The translations under genes and the position numbers were made by a program. A model generated the notes under the pieces. That model was not told the DNA's origin. It ran no database searches and saw only the letters and a list, made by a program, of their open reading frames with translations. Shown one piece after another: positions 22,157 through 24,502 of a stretch of 36,032 bases of DNA (position 1 is its first letter; every line of letters begins with the position of its first letter). This DNA comes from Parcubacteria group bacterium GW2011_GWA2_49_9 (GTDB taxonomy: Bacteria; Patescibacteriota; Minisyncoccia; Phycocordibacterales; UBA10002). The stretch is from assembly GCA_001004005.1 (NCBI GenBank), contig LCQF01000024.1, positions 1 through 36,032 on the forward strand, read 5' to 3'.

Positions 22157-22249
22157 GAGGACTTACGCGTTTTTTTCTTAATTCTCCCCATCTCCCCTAA
22201 AAAGGGGAGCACACGCCGTCTGCGGCGAGAGGGGTGTGCGTAAGTCCTA
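22157..22249. mobile_element. MITE-like element, copy 1 (93 bp)
   Basis: GAGGACTTACGC ... GCGTAAGTCCTA inverted ends; flanks taagt/taaat. Confidence 0.7.
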
Positions 22250-22422: not shown

Positions 22423-22426
22423 TTTG

Positions 22427-23401
22427 ATGAGAGAAAGGCAACGACATACGCTTTGGAGAATACACATAAGACCTAAAGGACCGGATGGCAAAGCCGCCCC
22501 GCGAAAGTCCATAGACCTTTGTTTAGGAAAGGGTGTTATTGGCATTGGCTGGGGATTTCAAGGTGAAAAACCACCCACGTCGGTTAAGGAGTTTTATCGG
22601 CGTGCGAAAAAGAAGTTTTCGGGGAAAGGCTGGAAGGGCGCAGCTAACGCCATTATCAGCCCCGATGGAAAGGGTATGGAGATTGGCGACTTAGTCTGGA
22701 TGAGGAATCTGGAAGGGACTTATTATCTCGGACGAATAACTGGGGGGTGGGAATACAATCATAGCGGAGAATTTGGGGAGCATGACATAGTCAACATGAG
22801 GCCATGTGACCTCCATCGGGTGGATAAGCGCATTCCCGGCGCGATAATTAATCGTTTTGTATCTAGCCAGACGGTTTGCAGAATCCACGACAAGACAGCG
22901 CTCATATTTTCCAAACTCGTCTATAATGACATGACAGAAAGTGACCTCTATGATGATACTGATGTTGATCTATCGAACATATTCAGTCTGTTATCAGCCG
23001 AGGATTTGGAGGATGTTGTGGGGCTTTATTTGCAACATGAGCGCGGCTATATGCTCATCCCAAGTTCAAGAACTAGAAGGAACGACGCTATAAAATATGA
23101 ATATGAGCTTGTGCATAGAAAAACTGGAAAAAGAGCATTTGTTCAGGTTAAGAGCGGCGAGCTGTTGAACCCCATCAACTATAACGACAACGACGGAAAA
23201 TATTATCTCTTTTGTTCGAAGGGGTACATCGGAGAAGAAAGTAGTGTTAAAGTTGAGACGTTGAAGAGAAATGAAGTTGAAGATTTTCTGTATCGGGAGA
23301 AAGACAAGATGCCTTACCATATTAGAATGTGGATTGAATACAGGGTAGGTAAGTCGAACAAAATCCGGAATCGGAAGTTGGAGAAACGGGATGAGATATG
23401 A
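22427..23401 (+). CDS. Putative nuclease (PD-(D/E)XK-like C-terminal region) with N-terminal DNA-modification-reader-like domain
   Basis: N-term VIGIGWGF...GDLVWMRNLEGTYYLGRITGGWEY; C-term YEYELVHRKTGKRAFVQVKSGE. Confidence 0.5.
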   Translation: MRERQRHTLWRIHIRPKGPDGKAAPRKSIDLCLGKGVIGIGWGFQGEKPPTSVKEFYRRAKKKFSGKGWKGAANAIISPDGKGMEIGDLVWMRNLEGTYYLGRITGGWEYNHSGEFGEHDIVNMRPCDLHRVDKRIPGAIINRFVSSQTVCRIHDKTALIFSKLVYNDMTESDLYDDTDVDLSNIFSLLSAEDLEDVVGLYLQHERGYMLIPSSRTRRNDAIKYEYELVHRKTGKRAFVQVKSGELLNPINYNDNDGKYYLFCSKGYIGEESSVKVETLKRNEVEDFLYREKDKMPYHIRMWIEYRVGKSNKIRNRKLEKRDEI

Positions 23402-23649
23402 AAATCGCCTACGACAAAACGGTTGATGCGCTCAACGTAACGCTTCGCGCAGGAAGGGTGGCAAAAATGGTGGAAGTCGCGGCGGAAGTTATGTTGGGAG
23501 GATTTACGCACACCCCTCTCGCCGCAGACGGCGTGTGCTCCCCTTAGTAGGGGAGAATTAAGAAACAGATGCGTAAGTCCTCGTTGGATTTGGATAAACG
23601 GAGGAATGTCGTGCATCTGGAAGTCATCGGAGTGGGACAGAAACTTTGA
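23398..23649 (+). pseudogene. DUF2283-family gene interrupted by MITE-like element copy 2
   Basis: MKIAYDKTVDALNVTLRAGRVAKMVEVAAEVML | element | DLDKRRNVVHLEVIGVGQKL*; precise excision restores a 53-aa ORF. Confidence 0.88.
23498..23582. mobile_element. MITE-like element, copy 2 (85 bp, inverted relative to copy 1)
   Basis: GAGGATTTACGC ... GCGTAAGTCCTC; GTTGG duplicated at 23493-23497 and 23583-23587. Confidence 0.9.
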
Positions 23650-24331: not shown

Positions 24332-24502
24332 TAGGACTTACGCAATTTACTACTTTTCTTATTCCCCCTTTCCTAAAGGGGGTGTCCGAGTCATCGAGGA
24401 TGGGGGATTTAAAGCATAAAATCCCTCGGCTTATCAGCCACTCCCTTTAAGAAAAGCTTGCAGTCGTAGACTGGGAGAATTAAGAAGAATGCGTAGGTCC
24501 TA
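24332..24502. mobile_element. MITE-like element, copy 3 (171 bp)
   Basis: TAGGACTTACGC ... GCGTAGGTCCTA ends. Confidence 0.7.

Follow-up and report, generated by a model that had tools for sequence, protein, structure and literature searches.

The DUF2283 gene at 23398 of the analysed DNA (the window, 36,032 nucleotides, contig C24 of a 910-kb assembly that is 92% complete) is interrupted by an 85-bp segment, which raises the question of whether this segment is a transposed element and, if so, which enzyme moved it. A first-pass annotation had placed such a segment between two GTTGG copies, and the sequence bears this out to the base: positions 23493-23587 read GTTGG / GAGGATTTACGCA...TGCGTAAGTCCTC / GTTGG, the two ends of the element pairing across 13 positions with one mismatch. 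The assembled structure matches exactly the pattern of the family described below. The outermost bases are G...C in this copy and usually T...A in the family. The element folds much more strongly than shuffled sequence (z -6.1), and the window gave no match in Rfam. The same annotation regarded the segment as a MITE-like, non-autonomous element; it indeed combines inverted ends, a target duplication, a short length without a transposase gene, multiple copies and a full-length relative with the same ends, as expected of a MITE. The features of the locus are collected in Table 1.

Table 1. Coordinates of the interrupted gene, the inserted element and the related elements within the window.
Feature	Position	Strand	Basis
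Interrupted DUF2283 gene, 5' part (33 codons plus one base)	23398..23497	+	Frame, profile, orthologues
Interrupted DUF2283 gene, 3' part; in frame with the 5' part once the element and one GTTGG are removed	23588..23649	+	Frame, profile, orthologues
MITE, 85 bp, no ORF of its own; 13-bp terminal inverted repeats, one mismatch	23498..23582	+	Sequence
GTTGG, left copy of the 5-bp target duplication	23493..23497	.	Sequence
GTTGG, right copy of the 5-bp target duplication	23583..23587	.	Sequence
REP-like double-hairpin interior (GCCGC-AGAC-GGCG and CTCCCCTTAGTAGGGGAG)	23510..23563	+	Repeat search, folding
Second family MITE, same interior inverted; imperfect duplication TAAGT/TAAAT	22157..22249	-	End pairing
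Third element, same ends, different and longer interior (169 bp from AGG to CCT); no recognisable duplication	24332..24502	.	End pairing

Removal of the element together with one GTTGG (90 bp) restores a 53-residue protein, as had been proposed, and this protein matches the Pfam family DUF2283 (PF10049; E=2.8e-8, 34.2 bits, gathering cut-off 23 bits). In the interrupted gene, the reading frame meets a stop codon within the element, leaving a 49-residue ORF (23398-23547) made up of 33 native and 16 element-encoded residues. The insertion thereby removes the last 20 of the 53 residues, a loss that has probably inactivated the protein. The uninterrupted allele, which the first-pass annotation had suggested seeking in relatives, was found in two genomes of the same genus (G007 and G009) in a search of 41 genomes. 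The G007 orthologue, likewise of 53 residues, aligns without gaps across the insertion site and shares 68% identity with the restored protein; that of G009, in which the element is also absent, is 65% identical. Scores of 50.8 and 44.7 bits were obtained for the orthologues against the DUF2283 profile. Since both read straight through the site, the orthologues do not naturally contain the 85-bp segment; its presence in them was what the annotation had named as overturning its reading. The exact duplication and the empty alleles in relatives thus uphold its description of a base-resolved transposition event, here in small-genome, Parcubacteria-type bacteria.

The element is one member of a family with many copies. 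Similarity searches and retrieved stretches of genomes, on which all repeat counts given here are based, yielded no fewer than 71 short elements that carry TAGGACTTACGCA-type ends, in the window's genome and related genomes. A perfect 5-bp duplication at an identical offset, one base outside AGG...CCT, flanks 48 of these 71 elements, six of them in the window's genome; mismatched end pairings gave 0.3 perfect duplications on average and 4 at most (2000 shuffles), so that the duplication is not a product of chance. The family duplicates AT-rich sites (77%), among which GTTGG stands out as unusual. Allowing at most one mismatch, the window's genome contains 25 copies of the end AGGACTTACGCA, against 3 of the reversed control; 11 elements there have paired ends, the pairs forming elements of 82-169 bp, three of which lie in the window (Table 1). 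In G009, whose genome is about 700 kb, 104 such ends were counted and 44 paired-end MITEs were retrieved (loci L103-L142 and L151-L153), most of them 142 or 165 bp long and differing very little from one another. Compared with its nearest neighbour, a copy has a median identity of 98.7% in G009 and of 84.6% in the window's genome, which suggests a recent burst in the former and older activity in the latter; near-identical copies of this kind suggest recent activity in lineages that are regarded as streamlined. Searches for similar DNA in phages and plasmids returned none.

The interior of the element, with its two hairpins (GCCGC/GGCG and CTCCCC/GGGGAG), is a repeat that mostly occurs in this genome without the transposon ends. 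Allowing that these counts are approximate, the stretches having been picked by similarity and overlapping hits possibly counting twice, the stretches retrieved from the window's genome contain 8 copies of this interior with both transposon ends, 5 with one end and 40 with none, and for a second interior (GTCATTCC...GGAATGAC) the corresponding numbers are 5, 5 and 26. Most simply, these are REP-like repeats in their own right that came to sit between transposon ends. A wider and tentative proposal, which we consider less likely than not, is that ISMesi2-like ends have repeatedly been combined in this genus with different REP-like palindromes that also spread alone, two repeat systems of different origin thus sharing cargo in composite MITEs and reshaping very small genomes, with G009 as a recent burst. 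The window's genome also carries three Y1_Tnp (RAYT-like) genes (C8:32313, C35:12155 and C6:42087; L156-L158), possible movers of REP sequences.

A full-length element with the same type of ends, together with its transposase, was the remaining item that the first-pass annotation had recommended looking for, and it is present within the genus. In G010, the sequence of which is identical to Parcubacteria group bacterium Greene0416_79, two such ends lie 1047 bp apart (C4:6072-7118) and enclose a single ORF of 323 residues, the whole element measuring 1049 bp. Its ends are perfect over 17 bp (AGGACTTACGCACTTTG) and have 12 bp in common with those of the window's MITE, the left end of which deviates at one position; a MITE of G007 (L068) agrees with it at 16 of 17 end positions. 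No clear duplication was seen at the flanks of the G010 element itself. The 323-residue protein scores 347.4 bits against NCBIfam NF049921 (IS701_2; cut-off 250), carries a DDE domain according to Pfam, and has the catalytic D, D and E that are invariant among the transposases compared. The AGGACTTACGC ends recur in relatives of this element from other bacteria and an archaeon (Saccharibacteria, a Loosdrechtia genome and Methanoperedens), and the spread of the clade over these groups and Parcubacteria hints that it has passed between widely differing organisms. More distant relatives, ISMesi2 among them, end in AGGAGTTACGCAG or AGGACTTACGCAG, and three of four distant full-length relatives, these three on plasmids, are flanked by perfect 5-bp duplications (ATGCT, ATGGT and TAGGA) at an identical offset. 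In cyanobacteria, the full-length relatives identified in this analysis have AGGAGTTACGCAG ends, and MITEs such as Nezha seem to end in a similar way.

An ISMesi2-like transposase was found neither in the window's assembly nor in G009, where MITE copies are most numerous, and only five of 297 sampled genomes of the order match it, two of the five as contig-end fragments. Because the assemblies are incomplete and repeats tend to break them, its absence from the window's assembly is weak evidence; it nevertheless points to a source element that was lost or went unassembled, and to a MITE that probably moved in trans. In a further genome (G171; L161 and L164-L169), seven similar transposase fragments each lie at a contig end, such copies being of the kind that break assemblies.

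Taking these sequence comparisons together, we assign a probability of about 0.92 to the reading that the 85-bp segment is a MITE inserted into the DUF2283 gene by an ISMesi2-like (NCBIfam IS701_2) DDE transposase acting in trans. Such a transposase would recognise the AGGACTTACGCA-type ends of the MITE, excise it from a donor site in what was presumably a cut-and-paste reaction, and join it to a 5-bp staggered cut within the DUF2283 gene, where gap filling would leave the two copies of GTTGG and a gene that ends inside the element.

Other explanations of the locus were weighed against this one. The segment might instead be a palindromic repeat of REP type that a Y1 (RAYT/IS200-like) transposase has dispersed, its ends being part of the repeat, and the REP-like double hairpin found at dozens of places and the three Y1_Tnp genes of the genome would fit such an origin. 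Y1 transposases, however, leave no target duplication, whereas 48 of the 71 elements have one; moreover, the ends occur with unrelated interiors, most copies of the interior lack the ends, and the interior was not found beside the Y1 genes save for a single short match about 800 bases off. We therefore hold this origin to be very improbable, the least likely of those considered. Hardly more credible is that the gene was never truly broken, with either a functional 49-residue product bearing an element-encoded tail or a segment that belonged to the gene ancestrally: its first 33 residues are intact and its start overlaps the end of the upstream gene, but the run-through in both orthologues and the loss of 20 residues speak against it.

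It is similarly improbable that an unrelated transposase moved the element, the candidate at hand being an IS4-type enzyme, which is encoded by the sole DDE_Tnp_1 gene in the window's assembly. The apparent ends of its own element, TTAACCGGAC / GTCCGGTTAA, are unlike those of the MITE, and IS4-family elements duplicate about 10 bp (PMC2266710) rather than five. This gene, which together with a DUF4372 domain makes up the IS4-type element at L067:1327-2496 (minus strand), was rejected as the source of the MITE on the grounds of its differing ends.

With an ISMesi2-like enzyme as the favoured mover, ISMesi2 itself is the nearest named element found; its transposase shows about 40% identity along the full length and is distant in sequence. 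ISMesi2 and its relatives (IS701-like; Allomeiothermus, cyanobacteria and Methanosarcina) resemble the present family in their ends, AGGA(G/C)TTACGCA, in their total length of about 1.05-1.14 kb, which is like that of the G010 element, and in the 5-bp duplications that three of them show at the same offset as the MITEs; a difference is that the G010 element reads CTTTG rather than GTTG after the common core. The IS701 family proper duplicates exactly 4 bp and measures 1400-1550 bp (De Palmenaer et al. 2008, PMC2266710), as against 5 bp in the MITEs and three distant full-length relatives and 1049 bp for the G010 element, while a partial match to its end consensus, ---YACT-Y--YR (PMC2266710), is a shared feature. 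On these published values of duplication and length, the parent element is filed in an ISMesi2-like clade and not in IS701 in the strict sense. ISAba11 is a candidate for a better-studied relative, although a paper on it states no length for its duplication. The prokaryotic MITEs reviewed in PMC10969869, QMITE2 of Coxiella among them, are likewise short, with IS-type ends, a target duplication and no transposase, and QMITE2 is associated with REP palindromes; the window's element differs in its host group.

The insertion of a MITE in the window is thus well supported and its mechanism is of a known kind, to which our data add the family, its host group and the transposase that probably moves it. 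Relative to the first-pass annotation, what is new is the multi-copy family (three members in the window), the interior as a separate repeat, and the type of transposase; with the likely enzyme and its ends now named, activity can be tested in the laboratory. Such an event has apparently not been described before in this Parcubacteria-type group: among the open-access papers searched, none combined 'miniature inverted-repeat' with 'Patescibacteria', which is no proof of novelty, and the end sequence led to unrelated papers only.

As regards the surroundings of the interrupted gene, the upstream gene (22424-23398, plus strand), the stop of which overlaps the DUF2283 start (ATGA), encodes a 325-residue protein matching the PADLOC candidate defence family PDC-S02 (E=3.5e-89), in which a QVKSGE stretch recalls PD-(D/E)XK nucleases. 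In the relatives, DUF2283 keeps company with nuclease or toxin-antitoxin-like genes, adjoining in G007 (L154:331-1470) a gene that is weakly HNH-like and a DUF433/DUF5615 pair, and in G009 (L155:471-941) a DUF4258-like gene.
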